Positions 9,160 to 19,998 of a stretch of 23,337 bases of DNA are shown one piece after another (positions within the stretch are counted from its first letter, which is position 1; each line of letters opens with the position of its first letter). Position numbers and translations under genes: made by a program. The notes beneath the pieces are model-generated. The model ran no database searches. It was not told the origin of the DNA and was given only the letters and a program-made list of their open reading frames with translations. The stretch is from a virus, in IMG/VR virus record IMGVR_UViG_3300024999_000409, positions 1 through 23,337 of that record. One strand, given 5' to 3'.

Positions 9160-9705
9160 TTATTTATTCCCAAAAATTTGTTTATACTTATTTTGAATAA
9201 AACCCAATACTGGTATTAATGATTTATTTCCCATTGCAATAAAATTTTCCAATATGCTTGAAATCTCCACTAAGATAATAGAATTATAAATCACATAAGA
9301 AATCTCTTGACCAAATAGAATTCCTTCAACAATTCCTAATTGATGAGATATGTAGAGTAAAGACGCATACATAATTGTTTTTACGCCGATCCCATTTTTC
9401 AATTGTCTTGATGTCAATACTTTTTCTTTCCATCCAGTAAAATAGTTTTTAAAACTTAATGAACCATAATTAACGATTACAATACTTATATGTTTTGAAA
9501 TTATGTCAATTATGGTTAGAGCAACTATAAAGACAATTATTTGTTTTGGAAAACCAATAGCACTCAAAAATAAAGCTCCAATAATACTCAACAAAAGTAT
9601 TCCTTTGTCAAAAAAACGAGTAATGGTGTCTAATCCTTGATTCCAAACCTCATTCCACATGTTCTCATCCACCTCTTTCACAGTTAACATTTGTTGATAT
9701 TTCAT
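9160..9705 (-). CDS. Holin of the phage_holin_4 (TcdE-like) type
   Basis: The protein has 181 residues with a GGAGGG ribosome site. Four likely membrane segments lie near 34-50, 54-72, 110-125 and 134-152. The pattern in 137-160 (YVIYNSIILVEISS then ILENFIAMG) is typical of the holin_4 superfamily, where a membrane helix with a conserved glutamate is followed by ILEN. Holins open the inner membrane at the set time so that the endolysin reaches the wall. It follows the amidase in transcription order, so the pair forms the lysis cassette. About 200 bases with two hairpins separate it from the amidase, which suggests separate control. Confidence 0.85.
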   Translation of the reverse strand: MKYQQMLTVKEVDENMWNEVWNQGLDTITRFFDKGILLLSIIGALFLSAIGFPKQIIVFIVALTIIDIISKHISIVIVNYGSLSFKNYFTGWKEKVLTSRQLKNGIGVKTIMYASLLYISHQLGIVEGILFGQEISYVIYNSIILVEISSILENFIAMGNKSLIPVLGFIQNKYKQIFGNK

Positions 9706-9913: not shown

Positions 9914-10585
9914 CTATGCAAGCTCTAATCTTTTGCAAGCATAACCCATTTTAATAATCTGTTTAATTACTTCATCTGATTTTGATTCTAATACTCTCAC
10001 TGATAAATAAATGTCTTTATCTACTTTTGTTTCTTTTATTGTATCTGCCACTTTATTTACTCCTTCTTTATAAGTTTTCAATTCAATAATTTTAGCATTA
10101 ATAGCATCACATAATTGTTTCCATGACTTTCCCATTCTTGTCAAATATTCGTAAGGATCAACATGGTCTATCCCCTTATATAATGATCTTAATCCATTAT
10201 GTGACCATACATTATCATCAACATTCCAACCATGACGAATACATAAATCCGCAACAAACCAAACTGTTTTATTCCATACGATTTCAAATTGATTTTTATC
10301 ATTCGTTTCACACATTTCAACACCAAGCCATTCTCTGTTGCCTTGCCAACTGCCTGTATGCCATGCTATTTCATTCTCAGGAATAAATTGATATATTTCT
10401 GCTCCTACCCAATCTGCGATAAAGTGAACAGATGATTGTCTATCTGCATTATTCCAATAGTTATAATGATTAAGAGATGTTGCTCCGATGTTCGCTGTAC
10501 TGTGGATTGTGATACCTTTCAGATTAATAAATTTTTCTTTTGGTCTGTTCATAGATATTAATTGTTGTTTAATATAATATGACAT
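9914..10585 (-). CDS. Endolysin: N-acetylmuramoyl-L-alanine amidase (Amidase_2)
   Basis: The protein has 223 residues with a GGAGGAAAAA ribosome site. The amidase_2 fold is clear: GITIHSTAN with the first zinc histidine (H28), VHFIAD at 53-58, IAWHTG at 73-78, a GVEMCE strand at 88-93, and WSHNGLRSLYKGIDHVDP at 127-144 with H129 and D143 as likely remaining zinc ligands. It cleaves the bond between muramic acid and the stem peptide. Residues 188-223 (YLSVRVLESKSDEVIKQI, then a GYACKRLEL end) form a short C-terminal domain like those of clostridial phage lysins, probably for wall binding. There is no signal peptide, so release depends on the holin. Its start follows the preceding nuclease stop by two bases. 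Confidence 0.9.
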   Translation of the reverse strand: MSYYIKQQLISMNRPKEKFINLKGITIHSTANIGATSLNHYNYWNNADRQSSVHFIADWVGAEIYQFIPENEIAWHTGSWQGNREWLGVEMCETNDKNQFEIVWNKTVWFVADLCIRHGWNVDDNVWSHNGLRSLYKGIDHVDPYEYLTRMGKSWKQLCDAINAKIIELKTYKEGVNKVADTIKETKVDKDIYLSVRVLESKSDEVIKQIIKMGYACKRLELA

Positions 10586-10587
10586 TA

Positions 10588-11724
10588 TTATATTTTTCCT
10601 CCTTCTTTAATATGAAAAGAACTATCTAATAAAGATAGTTCTTTAAGGCATCCATCCAATATCTCTTCAATCTTATCAAAGTCATAATACCAAATTTCTA
10701 ATAATTTAATATTATTTTTTTTTGCATATTCTCTTTTTCTTCTATCATGTTCAACTTGTCGCTCAAAATCTTTTATAGTTTTATGAAATCCTTTGCAAAA
10801 CTTTTCATGTTGTCCACCTTGATATTCTATAAGAAGGTTATATTGAGGTAAAAAGAAGTCATAAGACAGTAATCCATTTCGTAAACCAACTAGACCATCA
10901 AATTTCTTTTGAGGAATATAATATTTATTATTTTGTTTTTCTAGTAAATTATTATAATCAAACTCACTTATTTCTATGAAGTTATTATAGATAAAAACTT
11001 CTTCACATCTTTTTTCTCCTTTTGGATTATTACATTTTGGGCATCTTCTATTATGTGTAAATTTATTTGGTGTAACTGGATATTCTGTGCCACATTTATT
11101 ATGTCTCATTAAAATCGGCGTATTGGCATTAATATATTCTCCGAGAATTGTATATTCGTCACCAACCAAACTCTCAACTCTTTCTGTAAATATAGGAGCA
11201 TATTTGATACGCCAATGATCAACGTCTACTGGAAATATATATGTTTTATTTTTCCGTATTTTTATATTAACAATTTTGACTTTCTGTATTTTGGGACGTT
11301 TTATATTAACTGTTTTAATCTTCTGTACTTGAGGGCAATTTAGACAAATATCTATGTTTTTTCTCCGTAAAAAAGAATCTGGAATAACTGACCATGTATT
11401 ACCACATTTTAGATGTTTAATTAGAATAGGAATTCTCGCAGTAATATATTCGCCTAAAACCTCATATTGTCCGTTAGTTTTTTCAAATACTTCTTTTTTA
11501 AATTTCTCAGTAGTTTTCTTAGGTGTGCCAAAACATGCAGGACATCTTTTTCCTGCTTTTAAAATTTTATAAGGGGTAACAGGATATTCAGTTCCGCAAG
11601 TATTGTGCCTCATCATAATATGAGTTCTATTGTTTATATACTCTTTCCCAATTACTGAATATTCTTCACCATATAAATTATAAACATCTTTTATAAATTC
11701 CTCGATTGTATTCTTCTTTCCCAT
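10588..11724 (-). CDS. Zinc-ribbon (DUF723-like repeats) / Vsr-like homing-type nuclease
   Basis: I start the protein at ATG 11724 (378 residues), because AAAGGTGG lies eight bases upstream; the earlier GTG overlaps that site. Three DUF723-like repeats are visible: about 6-65, 72-130 and 176-231. Each has an 'EY.VLGEYI...PI..RH..CG' core and one or two CxxC pairs. The third runs into a nuclease domain: LLSYDFFLP (D289), LIEYQGGQHE (E300, Q302, H306) and VEHDRRKR (E325-H326-D327), closing with LLEIWYYDF. From KGEKRCEEVF onward it is clearly related to the nuclease at 7671, while the N-terminal repeats differ. This suggests a shared cutting module with swapped binding modules. It sits immediately upstream of the endolysin. 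Confidence 0.75.
   Translation of the reverse strand: MGKKNTIEEFIKDVYNLYGEEYSVIGKEYINNRTHIMMRHNTCGTEYPVTPYKILKAGKRCPACFGTPKKTTEKFKKEVFEKTNGQYEVLGEYITARIPILIKHLKCGNTWSVIPDSFLRRKNIDICLNCPQVQKIKTVNIKRPKIQKVKIVNIKIRKNKTYIFPVDVDHWRIKYAPIFTERVESLVGDEYTILGEYINANTPILMRHNKCGTEYPVTPNKFTHNRRCPKCNNPKGEKRCEEVFIYNNFIEISEFDYNNLLEKQNNKYYIPQKKFDGLVGLRNGLLSYDFFLPQYNLLIEYQGGQHEKFCKGFHKTIKDFERQVEHDRRKREYAKKNNIKLLEIWYYDFDKIEEILDGCLKELSLLDSSFHIKEGGKI
10616..10644 (-). terminator. Terminator-like hairpin inside the end of the nuclease gene
   Basis: AAAGAACTATCT and AGATAGTTCTTT form a 12-base perfect stem with a 5-base loop, followed on the minus strand by TTTTCATATT. It encodes nuclease residues near LSLLDSSF and lies just before the lysin ribosome site. 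It could attenuate transcription into the lysin gene. Confidence 0.5.
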
Positions 11725-11766
11725 TATTATTTCCACCTTTCACTTCATAAATTTCCACAAATAAAA

Positions 11767-11794
11767 AAGAAGACTAAATTGGCTTAGTCTTCTT
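11767..11794 (-). terminator. Intrinsic terminator after DUF5659-like copy 3
   Basis: AAGAAGACTAA and TTAGTCTTCTT form an 11-base perfect stem with loop ATTGGC, followed on the minus strand by a T-rich run (TTTTATTTG). The stop codon of the small gene lies within the stem. Confidence 0.75.
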
Positions 11795-11959
11795 CCACTC
11801 CATTAACAAGTTATTTAATTTTTCATTGTCTATAAATATCCACATCCTTTTACCACTGTTGGCATTAAGTGCAGATAATTTATATCTCAACCCTTTACTC
11901 ATTAGATAATCCCTTAAATTCGAACTGTAACAAGGGAATAGTTGAATATCATTATCCAT
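11774..11959 (-). CDS. Small DUF5659-like protein (copy 3, divergent)
   Basis: The protein has 61 residues with an AAGGAA ribosome site. LRDYLMSKGLRYKLSALNA followed by MWIFIDNEKLNNLLMEW keeps the helix, 'YL..KG' turn, strand and short-helix plan of copies 1 and 2, but with little exact identity. It lies between the protease and the zinc-ribbon nuclease at 10588. That mirrors copy 2, which precedes the nuclease at 7671, although here an intrinsic terminator separates the pair. The function is unknown. Confidence 0.65.
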   Translation of the reverse strand: MDNDIQLFPCYSSNLRDYLMSKGLRYKLSALNANSGKRMWIFIDNEKLNNLLMEWKKTKPI

Positions 11960-11985: not shown

Positions 11986-13047
11986 TTAATAATATACAAT
12001 AAAATTATTAATCCCTTCATCCTTTAATTTTTGCGAAAACATTCTTGCATTTGCTTCAATACTAAATGCATTTAATTGACATTTGTATAATCCATTTATA
12101 AAAACAATATATGAATTATATCCTTTTACTTTTAAAACTTGTTGATATGCTTCAGCATTAGATTTTTGTGAGAATGCGTTTGCTTGGCATCTCCATAATT
12201 TTTTAGGAGTAGAATCTGGGTTTGGAATTATTATTTCTGGTTCTTTTTGTTTCAAAGTCTTTTCTAAATCCTCTAAATCAGGCAAAACAAATAAACCATA
12301 ACCTGACTTATTATCTCTTCCAACATCTTCAATATCAACACAATTATTTTTTACAAATTTCATTGCTTCATCTGGAGTAAGTTTTGGCAAATTATTTTTC
12401 TTTCTCCATTCAATATAGATTGCCAACAATCCAACTGCGACAGGACTTGAAAAACTTGTACCTGAAACAGAATGAATTTCTCCACAAATATTTTTAACAT
12501 ACATATGACTAGGACATGTTGTAATTAAAGATGGGCCTTTATTACTATAAGAGTCAACAATAGTTCCAATTTTATTTGTGGCACCAACAGAGATTACAAA
12601 GGGATATTTTGCCGGATAACTTATGTGGTCTTCATAATAATCGTTACCACTAGCTGCACAAATTACTAAATCTAATTCTTTATATCTTAGATAATCTTCA
12701 GTAGGCATTCCTCGCAAACCAGCCAACGAAATGTTCACAATATCAATCTCTTGTACATGATTTTTTACCCAATCAAATACAGCATCTTTATTTCTAGTGT
12801 TGTCGAAATATAGTATTTTACAGTTCTGGGATATTTGATTAACCGTTTGTGCCACATTAACTGGATGTCCAGATTTAATTGCTTTGCCGAAAACATCAGT
12901 ATAATATGATTCCATACCTTTTAATGGTTTTCCTTCGCTAGAATCTAGTATTACAACTGTAACATTATTACCATTGTAATTATTTGTATGCCATTTATCC
13001 ACATTTAGTAATTTGCGTATCCCATCATTTTCTTTTAATAGTGACAT
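11986..13047 (-). CDS. S8 (subtilisin-type) serine protease with two C-terminal SPOR-like repeats
   Basis: The protein has 353 residues with a GGAGGTGA ribosome site. The catalytic triad is visible: VVILDSSEG (D35), GHPVNVAQTVNQI (H61), the oxyanion AASGND (N135) and SGTSFSSPVA (S198). The usual HGTHVAG around the histidine is replaced by GHPVNVAQ, and the Asp motif has an insert, so it is an atypical member. Residues 284-317 and 320-352 are two related halves (WRCQANAFSQKSNAEAY; YKCQLNAFSIEANARMF) of SPOR type, which bind peptidoglycan stripped of stem peptides. There is no signal peptide or propeptide. It could be a virion or lysis protein that acts at the wall. An amidase of the kind that makes such stripped glycan lies downstream. 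Confidence 0.8.
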   Translation of the reverse strand: MSLLKENDGIRKLLNVDKWHTNNYNGNNVTVVILDSSEGKPLKGMESYYTDVFGKAIKSGHPVNVAQTVNQISQNCKILYFDNTRNKDAVFDWVKNHVQEIDIVNISLAGLRGMPTEDYLRYKELDLVICAASGNDYYEDHISYPAKYPFVISVGATNKIGTIVDSYSNKGPSLITTCPSHMYVKNICGEIHSVSGTSFSSPVAVGLLAIYIEWRKKNNLPKLTPDEAMKFVKNNCVDIEDVGRDNKSGYGLFVLPDLEDLEKTLKQKEPEIIIPNPDSTPKKLWRCQANAFSQKSNAEAYQQVLKVKGYNSYIVFINGLYKCQLNAFSIEANARMFSQKLKDEGINNFIVYY

Positions 13048-13070
13048 ATATTATTTTCACCTCCGGTCAA

Positions 13071-13423: not shown

Positions 13424-14260
13424 TTAAACACATAATTTCTTTAAATTATCAGGACATTCATCTAAATAATAGAAATAATGATTATTTATTATTCTTACAA
13501 CGTTGGTTAAGCATTTATTAATACATCCTCTTTTAAGTCCTAACTCTCTTTCACACAATAATTGATTTGACCAAGTTCCTATATATTGATAATTTTTATC
13601 AAAAACTACAAAATCACGATTATATCTAATGCGCTTTAATCTATCTTTGAGATTTGTTTCTGAGTAATCCTCTATGTATATTAAAATATAATCATTTAAA
13701 GATGGTTTTTTATTTTTAAGAACTGTCATAGAATCCCCTACACGCACATCATTTTCTTCGCAGAAAAGAAGTCTATTATCACATTCTTTAATAAAATTAC
13801 CATATTTATCAAATATTAAGAAAGGATGACTATCATCTGGTTTTGTTTTTAGATATTCAATACGATTTAGACCAGTTGCTTTATTTGCTCCTTGTCCACC
13901 AAGAGTCATGTTGTATCCACTACAACCATATGTGTTATAATAATCAATCCAAAATATTTCTTTATTATCTAAATCTTCTTGGGAATATGCTTGATCTATT
14001 ATTTCCCATATGAATTTTTCCTTTCCATATTTATTTATTGCCTTTTGAAATGCCGTATCATTACGTTTAATTGTGCTTAAATGATTTTGTTTTCTAGTTT
14101 TTAAAGATTTAGTAGTTTGACCAATATATTTTTTATTATTCATTATATTTGTGACTGAGTAAATAATTCCGAATTTATTTTTCTTATCTATATTAATCAC
14201 ATCCTTAAAATTAGGTAAACAAAAAGACAGATATAAAGTCTGTCTTTTTGTTTGTTTCAA
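13424..14260 (-). CDS. GIY-YIG homing endonuclease with NUMOD1-like repeats
   Basis: Up to 278 residues. The catalytic domain includes FGIIY at 30-34, KKYIG at 43-47, R56 in TRKQNH, KYGKEKF at 78-83, the catalytic glutamate near E101 in KEIFWI, and GYNMTLGGQG at 115-124, so it is complete. The C-terminal half has two NUMOD1-like DNA-binding modules: about 147-185 (FLIFDKYGNFIKEC) and 217-260 (FVVFDKNYQYIGTW then a helix-turn-helix). This is the standard plan of phage intron or free-standing homing enzymes. The start is uncertain: 14260 is TTG, and its first 15 codons overlap the upstream gene's terminator, so the real start may lie near the GTG at codon 21. Confidence 0.85.
   Translation of the reverse strand: MKQTKRQTLYLSFCLPNFKDVINIDKKNKFGIIYSVTNIMNNKKYIGQTTKSLKTRKQNHLSTIKRNDTAFQKAINKYGKEKFIWEIIDQAYSQEDLDNKEIFWIDYYNTYGCSGYNMTLGGQGANKATGLNRIEYLKTKPDDSHPFLIFDKYGNFIKECDNRLLFCEENDVRVGDSMTVLKNKKPSLNDYILIYIEDYSETNLKDRLKRIRYNRDFVVFDKNYQYIGTWSNQLLCERELGLKRGCINKCLTNVVRIINNHYFYYLDECPDNLKKLCV
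14217..14253 (-). terminator. Intrinsic terminator after the tail-tip gene
   Basis: AAACAAAAAGACAGA and TCTGTCTTTTTGTTT form a 15-base perfect stem with loop TATAAAG; the minus-strand right arm is T-rich. It follows the tail-tip gene stop (14315) by about 60 bases and overlaps the proposed start of the GIY-YIG gene. Confidence 0.75.
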
Positions 14261-16639: not shown

Positions 16640-17092
16640 TTATTTTAGTTTGATTAAGTCTAAATATATTTCTTTTAAACTATACATTTCACATTCATTA
16701 TATAATTTGAATCTAAGCCAATCATCAACAAAAATACAGAATGGAACTATTAGCATCCACAATATTGTATATGGGATACAAATCTGTCTATATAAATTCC
16801 CCCATGTATCTGAGTAATTCCATAGGTTCATCTCTAAAAACACATTAAAAAACATACCAGAAACAAACTCGACAATTAAAACTATAAAAGTTCCAATTAA
16901 AGTTTGTTGATATATTTTTAATTTATAATATTGTGGATACTCATTAAGCAATCCAATTAATACACTACAAATTCCACCTATTAGTAACATAATTATATTT
17001 GCATTGCTACGCCACACTCCCTCTAAGGTGAAATAAATCATACCCATAATAAAGAAGAGAGATAGATATTTTATTAACTGCTTACCATACAT
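16640..17092 (-). CDS. Polytopic membrane protein, resembles ABC_trans_CmpB family
   Basis: 150 residues with four likely membrane helices (about 8-24, 31-50, 63-86 and 103-123). The block EFVSGMFFNVFLEMNLWNYS followed by RQICIPYTILWMLIVPFCIFVDDW has the layout of the 'putative ABC transporter type IV' membrane family found in Firmicutes and some of their phages. No ATPase partner is present, so a transport role is unlikely here. Its ATG lies inside the end of the preceding gene (11-base overlap), so it is translated with the tail genes. A membrane protein inside a tail series could serve superinfection exclusion or DNA entry, but this is speculation. Confidence 0.65.
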   Translation of the reverse strand: MYGKQLIKYLSLFFIMGMIYFTLEGVWRSNANIIMLLIGGICSVLIGLLNEYPQYYKLKIYQQTLIGTFIVLIVEFVSGMFFNVFLEMNLWNYSDTWGNLYRQICIPYTILWMLIVPFCIFVDDWLRFKLYNECEMYSLKEIYLDLIKLK

Positions 17093-18858: not shown

Positions 18859-19998
18859 TTATATAAATGGTATTTCCTTAGATTTAACAGCATTAATTGA
18901 AAGTGTGCCATTACTATTTAATTGTAAATTTATATCATTGATTAGAAATCTTTCTTTATTTAGACCAAGTTTTGAGTCAGTTAACGTTATAATTGCATCT
19001 GAGTTTAAATGAAACATTCCCAAACTATTAATCTGAACAGAGTTTTGAACAGCCGTTTTTCTTTTTAAAATATACTCTGATAAATCAATGCACTGTTGCT
19101 CGGTTGAAATAGTATCAGTTTGATAAAAAAATATTCTATCAAAACCTAAATTTTGTACGCTTGTTGGTGATAGTAAATTGGAATTGACAACTGTATGAGA
19201 CACAGCCACTCCTGACGCAATATTTGACCCAACCACACGAACACTAGTATAGAGATCTGACCAATTAAATTGATTTGAACCACCTTGATAAACAAAAGAA
19301 TTTGTTGAAAAGTCCCACAAAGGAGATTTAATATCATCATCTACATCTTTGCTTATTTCTAATTGACCGTTTTCATTATAAAAACAAGAACAAGCATATA
19401 ATTGTGATAAATCTGTAATTATTTTTCCAAGTGTATCATTTGGTTGGTATGTCATGGTATAAGGTGTTTTTAATCCAACAAGTGAAGTATCAATAAGAGG
19501 AGGTTGTGGGTCTCCACTTAGTTCTAAAACACTTTTTATTGCTTGACTTACATCAGTATCAATATTTATTATATACACATAACCAATTTCCCCATTTAAA
19601 TCACCATTTAGCAAACTGAATTTATCTACACCATTGATAGATATTAAAGAATTACTAAATTTACTAGAAACTGAAGGGTTATCTAATATGTAAACTCCTT
19701 GGGGTAAGAAAAAATCAGTTTTATTAGGTATTTCTAAACATAAACTTAAACGAAACTTTTGATGTATATAAAAATTCTCAGGATTAGGTATATATTTATT
19801 ATCTAAATTAAATATATCAAAACTGCAAGTTCTCCTTACTCCATTATTTCTTTTTATAGAAAGATTACCATTTGTATTTGAAATTAACGTTGTAATTTCT
19901 TCTCGTACTGTTTCATCTGACCTTAAAAGTTCTATTTTTACCTTACGTGTATATGTACCTGATTCGAGAGCGTTTATATAATCATTGAAATTTGCCAT
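18859..19998 (-). CDS. Baseplate hub-like tail protein
   Basis: 379 residues with an AAGGT ribosome site. The start (YTRKVKIELL, then GNLSIKRNNGVRRTCSFDIF and a YIPNPENFYI segment) and the later LPQGVYILDNPSVSS resemble tail/baseplate hub proteins of clostridial phages that open with a 'G.Y.RKVKIE' strand, and more distantly the gp27/XkdQ type. It is predicted to form a ring at the tail end that connects tube and fibres. It lies between the distal-tail-like and small baseplate genes. Confidence 0.55.
   Translation of the reverse strand: MANFNDYINALESGTYTRKVKIELLRSDETVREEITTLISNTNGNLSIKRNNGVRRTCSFDIFNLDNKYIPNPENFYIHQKFRLSLCLEIPNKTDFFLPQGVYILDNPSVSSKFSNSLISINGVDKFSLLNGDLNGEIGYVYIINIDTDVSQAIKSVLELSGDPQPPLIDTSLVGLKTPYTMTYQPNDTLGKIITDLSQLYACSCFYNENGQLEISKDVDDDIKSPLWDFSTNSFVYQGGSNQFNWSDLYTSVRVVGSNIASGVAVSHTVVNSNLLSPTSVQNLGFDRIFFYQTDTISTEQQCIDLSEYILKRKTAVQNSVQINSLGMFHLNSDAIITLTDSKLGLNKERFLINDINLQLNSNGTLSINAVKSKEIPFI

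Follow-up and report, generated by a model that had tools for sequence, protein, structure and literature searches.

Here, we show that a viral gene encoding an S8 protease with a C-terminal SPOR domain belongs to a family whose members adjoin or are fused to lysis enzymes in related phages, and that the protease is probably a component of lysis in Gram-positive bacteria. The gene lies in a viral DNA stretch of 23,337 nucleotides (IMG/VR record IMGVR_UViG_3300024999_000409), the whole of which we call the window. Its product is most likely an accessory lysin. The specific role that we propose, with a probability of about 0.7, is that of a lysis-module protease which is made in the cytoplasm, escapes through the action of the holin and attaches to the wall, and which would cut envelope proteins during lysis, both substrate and activity being putative.

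The S8-SPOR gene and its surroundings

The features on which the analysis turns are as follows.

11986..13047, minus strand: S8 subtilase-SPOR protein, 353 aa (ORF, Pfam, AlphaFold, Foldseek)
12256..13047, minus strand: S8 domain, residues 1-264, calcium-site-A loop absent
12943-12945 (D35), 12865-12867 (H61), 12643-12645 (N135) and 12454-12456 (S198), minus strand: catalytic codons
11989..12204, minus strand: SPOR domain, residues 282-353, two half-repeats in one domain
13058-13064, minus strand: Shine-Dalgarno GGAGGTG 5′ of the S8 start codon, read from the sequence
11774..11959, minus strand: 61-aa ORF (phrog_21297), flanked by the S8 gene and the endonuclease gene
10588..11736, minus strand: free-standing homing-endonuclease-like gene, an insertion separating the endolysin gene from the S8 gene
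9914..10585, minus strand: Amidase_2 endolysin (Pfam, PHROGs)
9160..9705, minus strand: holin-like membrane protein (a Phage_holin_4_1 match that misses the family cut-off, E=0.0011)

The reading frame starts with ATG, and its coordinates and strand are as first described. Judged by its sequence, the product is an S8 family member bearing a SPOR domain. Pfam finds Peptidase_S8 (E=2.2e-14) and SPOR (PF05036, E=1.1e-9), and no peptidoglycan hydrolase domain. The SPOR match spans positions 2-75 of the 76 in the profile; hence the pair of SPOR-like repeats in the sequence-only reading is a single complete domain, each repeat being one half of it. Among the PHROGs, the protein matches phrog_3677 'protease' (3.5e-26), and its tail matches endolysin families. 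The best sequence matches in the PDB are subtilisins, together with the SPOR domain of CwlC (1x60, 4.9e-9). Residues D35, H61, N135 and S198 align to D32, H64, N155 and S221 of BPN′, giving an Asp-His-Ser triad in S8 order plus the oxyanion Asn. The Asp, Asn and Ser motifs had been recognised before; the His motif had been called atypical, which it is, with the catalytic His retained, but its actual string is SGHPVNVAQ. Moreover, among 20 aligned relatives the residue after this His is G, P, A, N, Q, S, D, M or K, and the departure from HGTHVAG is therefore a family trait rather than a peculiarity of this gene.

An AlphaFold model built from eleven sequences (pLDDT 81.4, pTM 0.74) has as its top Foldseek matches the calcium-independent subtilisins 1suc (E=6.6e-15) and 1sua, and 7y6m, an intracellular subtilisin, is also among its structural matches. 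By VIA, the model superposes on subtilisins with Z ~26 and an rmsd of 2.8 Å over ~240 residues. Residues 285-352 are modelled as beta-alpha-beta-beta-alpha-beta, the SPOR order, with pLDDT 82-91 across the block. The sequence-only reading had staked itself on an S8 fold and a C-terminal SPOR fold, and the model, being subtilisin-like and having the SPOR order, leaves it standing on both counts.

Tail genes lie transcriptionally upstream of the S8 gene (e.g., 18859-19998, phrog_1887). Downstream follow the 61-aa ORF, which ends at a terminator-like hairpin, the homing-endonuclease-like gene, the Amidase_2 endolysin and the holin-like protein. The gene is thus near the lysis cassette, as had been noted, but not immediately beside it, with two genes intervening before the endolysin. 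The last 35 residues of this endolysin share 49% identity (35 aa) with the C-terminus of an S8-Amidase_3 fusion at another locus, L008, and form a short module common to the two.

An S8 domain without pro-domain or calcium-site-A loop

The earlier finding that no signal peptide is present holds: the top hydrophobic 12-mer in the first 35 residues scores only 0.38. None of the 20 family members scores above 1.8 in this region, versus 39 of 65 control subtilases. Homology across the family starts at residue 1-7 (LKxNDxxRKLLNxDxWH), leaving no room for a pro-domain ahead of the S8 domain of ~260 aa. In the window protein, neither the Csp-type chaperone pro-domain nor the jellyroll insertion is present, and no LIPY-type pro-peptide is seen in the first 25 residues.

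The distance from the catalytic His to the following AP is also short. It is 13 in nearly all members and 11 in L004; BPN′ has 22, as do 41 of the 52 controls where it is readable. By alignment, what is missing is a stretch of nine residues equivalent to BPN′ 75-83, which is the calcium-site-A loop. Deletion of this loop greatly speeds the folding of subtilisin, and the engineered Sbt-70 folds without a prodomain (PMC4865297). Loss of the loop probably lets the S8 domain fold unaided in the cytoplasm, an argument built on the alignment and the published engineering. The natural absence of both pro-domain and loop parallels the engineered enzyme, and subtilase folding could be studied on the family as a natural case.

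The Ser, His and oxyanion Asn are conserved in 19 of 20 aligned members; in those 19, the acid residue is Asp in 14 and Glu in five. The five with Glu are all the members of one supported subclade (L083 7587-9032, L105 6467-7504, L111 2083-3495, L121 1-1076, L123 2334-3338) and retain His and Ser, suggesting a Glu-His-Ser variant of the triad. In L004 (11989-12990), an S8-SLH protein of a Tepidibacter hydrothermalis phage-plasmid, the Asp is lost, the His is shifted and the Ser motif is altered. With the first two of these changes, it may be inactive, possibly a pseudo-protease.

A family of phage subtilases

Viral contigs, annotated plasmids and Bacillota genomes were searched for relatives on S8 similarity, with lysis genes playing no part. 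IMG/VR was additionally scanned with an S8-only DNA pattern that encodes WHx[AS]G[YF]TGK, and 11 of the 13 matches carry the family. In all, 23 distinct loci were found in phages, prophages or viral contigs. A second viral contig, L002, encodes a protein identical to that of the window, and the L003 protein is 66% identical; identities of relatives to the window protein range over 22-72%. In a draw of 398 genomes from the phylum, five contain clear members (at least 225 bits), and the next match scores 136 bits. The scan of the genome collection with A4 and the viral scans with single relatives gave no matches or SLH-only ones.

What follows the S8 domain varies. It is SPOR in the window and L003, with a SPOR-like tail, undetected by Pfam, in L112. 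SLH follows in L004 (Pfam) and, by eye, an SLH-like region in L046. Cu_amine_oxidN1 follows in L082, L086, L105, L106, L121 and L123 (Pfam), and similar tails are visible by eye in L084 and L107. At six loci, an amidase endolysin has the S8 domain as its N-terminal half: the amidase is Amidase_3 in L008 and in L108, which has SLH too, and Amidase_2 in L111, L114, L119 and in L083, which has Cu_amine_oxidN1 too. The family also includes L118 and L120, and L115 and L116, which are cut or broken. Modules are shared with endolysins as well. For example, a module of the L003 endolysin terminates the L114 fusion (67% identity), and in L123 (Pfam) and L046 (by eye) the wall module of the protease is of the same type as that of the endolysin.

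In a FastTree phylogeny, 20 members were set beside 65 subtilases of bacteria, BPN′ and two further phage subtilases. It places the 20 members in a single clade (0.992) with no intruders; IQ-TREE also groups them, with weak support (UFBoot 63). At five places, fused and free-standing forms are sisters (UFBoot 99-100): SPOR in the window and L003 versus Amidase_3 in L008; SPOR-like in L112 versus Amidase_2 in L114; Cu_amine_oxidN1 in L105 versus Amidase_2-Cu_amine_oxidN1 in L083; Cu_amine_oxidN1 in L121 versus Amidase_2 in L111; and SLH-like in L046 versus Amidase_3-SLH in L108. That such close relatives differ after the S8 domain implies that the module behind the protease has been swapped repeatedly, always for one that binds or acts on the wall.

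Several candidates were set aside. The best matches in the phage collection, from Moorella phage MTATph1, Brevibacillus phage Jimmer1 and phages of Bacillus and Staphylococcus, represent other subtilases; neither of the two that were tested groups with the family clade. The human faecal 'Bacteriophage sp.' candidates H50 and H51 were dropped, their neighbours being bacterial housekeeping or large non-phage genes. Two 'Bacteriophage sp.' records of the phage collection, L013 and L014 (MT836091, MT836193), resemble pieces of bacterial chromosome, not phage. The best non-family genomic match (L016/L047) is located in a peptide-biosynthesis-like cluster, not in a phage; there, L047 6960-8900 encodes a tandem-S8 protein without a signal peptide, and the bacterial cluster resembles one for lasso-peptide biosynthesis.

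Association with lysis genes

A holin or endolysin occurs within ~1.5 kb, or in the same protein, at 17 of the 23 family loci versus 2 of 65 control subtilases (Fisher p=2e-11); the HMMs for this count were built from family loci, a circularity that affects the positives and leaves the controls untouched. The controls are subtilases from the same searches, with flanks of ~1.3 kb, and mostly look chromosomal. The two controls that score do so through an Amidase_3. For L004, the context was counted from its annotation.

The neighbourhood, with holin and endolysin, is conserved in the manner of a phage lysis module. In L003, an Amidase_3 endolysin comes directly after the S8-SPOR gene, and next come a weak XhlA match and a holin-like gene; in L112, the protease with the SPOR-like tail precedes an Amidase_3 endolysin. 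Phage_holin_4_1 lies immediately 5′ of the S8 gene in L008, L108, L114 and L120. Elsewhere, the orders are: tail genes, protease, XhlA, holin, M15 peptidase (L004); YvrJ-family small protein, protease (4-bp overlap), M23 endolysin with, by eye, the same type of tail (L046); Phage_holin_1, protease, M23 (L082); S8-Amidase_2 fusion, small BhlA-like protein, Phage_holin_6_1 (L083); holin-like reading frame, protease, M23 (L084); protease, weak XhlA match, small membrane protein, Amidase_2 (L107); fusion, then small proteins, one a weak Phage_holin_1 match (L111); protease, BhlA, Amidase_3 (L118); and protease, coiled-coil protein, Phage_holin_5_2, M23-Cu_amine_oxidN1 (L123). Two members speak against the association: L105 sits in the early region of a Mu-like phage, with holin-like genes ~2.5 kb away, and no phage context is visible for L086. 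With the S8 domain between holin and endolysin, or fused to an endolysin amidase, at independent loci, the lysis-stage role offered as one option by the sequence-only reading is well supported.

Relation to known systems

The family shares with the S8A subtilisins (BPN′, 1suc, 1sua) the fold, the D-H-N-S order and the Ser and Asn motifs. It differs in having neither signal, pro-domain nor calcium-site-A loop, in its relaxed His motif and in its wall-binding or amidase C-terminus. The overall plan, a catalytic domain joined to a wall-binding domain in a lysis module, is that of modular endolysins bearing SPOR, such as PlyGspY412 and Bacillus-phage endolysins (PMC11674121), or SLH, such as LysBT1 (PMC12285257). 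In contrast to these, the catalytic domain here is a protease and not a peptidoglycan hydrolase, although the six S8-amidase fusions have both. The Csp proteases (CspB, CspBA) are clostridial S8 enzymes that partner a peptidoglycan hydrolase, SleC, but retain the chaperone pro-domain and jellyroll (PMC3567191) that the window protein lacks. Like the window protein, intracellular subtilisins have no secretion signal; according to PDB entry 6f9m, their LIPY/F motif is involved in inhibition, and this motif is not seen in the window protein, which also lacks the calcium-site-A loop expected of an intracellular subtilisin. Judged on the features tested, the window protein thus falls outside the endolysins, the Csp proteases and the intracellular subtilisins.

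Accounts of how phages lyse Gram-positive hosts usually name a holin and a peptidoglycan hydrolase. Spanins and mycobacteriophage LysB are extra lysis proteins that act on an envelope layer beyond the peptidoglycan. The likeness to these is a functional analogy only, as the family is unrelated to them in sequence and its members are neither membrane proteins nor esterases. If the proposed role is true, subtilases in lysis modules would imply that wall or surface proteins form a barrier or sink that phages pay to remove. Within the open-access literature searched, we found no description of a phage lysis-module subtilase and no endolysin class made of protease-amidase fusions with wall-binding domains.

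Proposed role and alternatives

The protease, which has neither signal nor pro-peptide, would be synthesised in the cytoplasm and, going by gene order, late; its S8 domain would probably fold by itself thanks to the missing calcium-site-A loop. Once the holin opens the membrane, the protease would exit with the endolysin, as gene order and the fusions suggest. The amidase endolysin would then remove stem peptides, and the SPOR domain of the window protein would bind the resulting denuded glycan. Tethered in this way, the protease could cut surface-layer, wall-bound or wall-crossing proteins, its putative substrates, and this proteolysis may finish the opening of the envelope and the release of virions. 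Where relatives lack SPOR, targeting would come from another wall domain or from being fused directly to an amidase.

SPOR domains bind denuded glycan, the product of amidases (PMC6895207). All three SPOR-tailed proteases (window, L003, L112) have an amidase neighbour, a suggestion that SPOR is captured on the neighbour's product, albeit from three cases only and with amidases being common. The division-site targeting that had been proposed is then unneeded, since the neighbouring amidase makes the SPOR ligand; most relatives, besides, have a non-SPOR wall domain.

SLH proteins are encoded by 9 of 9 prophage hosts, but also by 82 of 101 genomes of the phylum, so that host SLH content does not discriminate in favour of a surface-layer link. 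Cutting of outer-membrane tethers in diderm Bacillota was considered and rejected: Omp85 is absent from 9 of 9 prophage hosts and present in 7 of 14 control genomes. Tentatively, and at somewhat less than even odds, we extend the proposal to many phages of monoderm Bacillota, which may use a dedicated proteolytic lysis step to strip a protein layer from the envelope, the agent being either a holin-released subtilase that is anchored to the wall and has no pro-domain, or an endolysin made of protease and amidase. Such a step would play, in Gram-positive hosts, a part comparable to that of spanins and LysB.

It has been shown in Clostridia that the S8 protease CspB activates pro-SleC, the precursor of a peptidoglycan hydrolase, during spore germination (PMC3567191). 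By analogy, and given that the S8 domain is fused or adjacent to endolysins, it could cleave and activate the endolysin, in cis in the fusions, or remove a holin inhibitor. We consider this unlikely. The Amidase_2 match of the window endolysin begins at residue 22 and the Amidase_3 match of the L003 endolysin at residue 10; these neighbours start near the catalytic domain and thus have no N-terminal pro-domain for an activator to remove. Moreover, an activator working in the cytoplasm would need no wall-binding tail, and the endolysin types are diverse (Amidase_2, Amidase_3, M15, M23).

Alternatively, the protease might destroy surface receptors on fragments of dead cells, limiting the re-adsorption of progeny, and be dispensable for lysis. 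The anatomy would be the same, and a wall-bound location and release at lysis fit equally well. Fusion to endolysin amidases suggests a part in wall opening, however, and while that is compatible with clearing too, we hold clearing alone to be rather improbable.

An entry protease carried on the tail tip of the virion, the other option of the sequence-only reading, is very unlikely: although the gene lies between tail and lysis genes in the window, L004, L083 and L108, six members are fused to endolysin amidases, the S8 gene comes after the holin in L008, L108, L114 and L120 and overlaps a small lysis-type gene by 4 bp in L046 and L107, and no member is fused to a tail-type domain. Least credible is a pseudoenzyme that retains the subtilase fold for wall binding, which the changes in L004, the relaxed His motif and the Glu-for-Asp subclade would fit, but which is at odds with the upkeep of Ser, His and Asn in 19 of 20 members despite their low identity.

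Finally, some features of these loci stand apart from the protease itself. The window contains unusually many endonuclease-like genes for so short a phage region (2177-2485, 2545-3726, 4052-5470, 5681-7129, 7671-8936, 10588-11736, 13424-14260), one of which splits the lysis module; that at 13424-14260 is GIY-YIG by Pfam, and the others are HNH-like or zinc-finger by eye. In L116 (8406-9825), the S8 gene is apparently interrupted by an HNH-homing-endonuclease-like ORF, perhaps an intron in a lysis gene. The S8 member at L084 1489-2600 (genome G609) has one in-frame TGA, for which recoding, error or decay are possible. Among the tail genes of the window, 16640-17092 encodes a membrane protein (ABC_trans_CmpB, PF06541), and a similar-looking membrane protein is encoded at L084 2968-3288, just ahead of the L084 holin.
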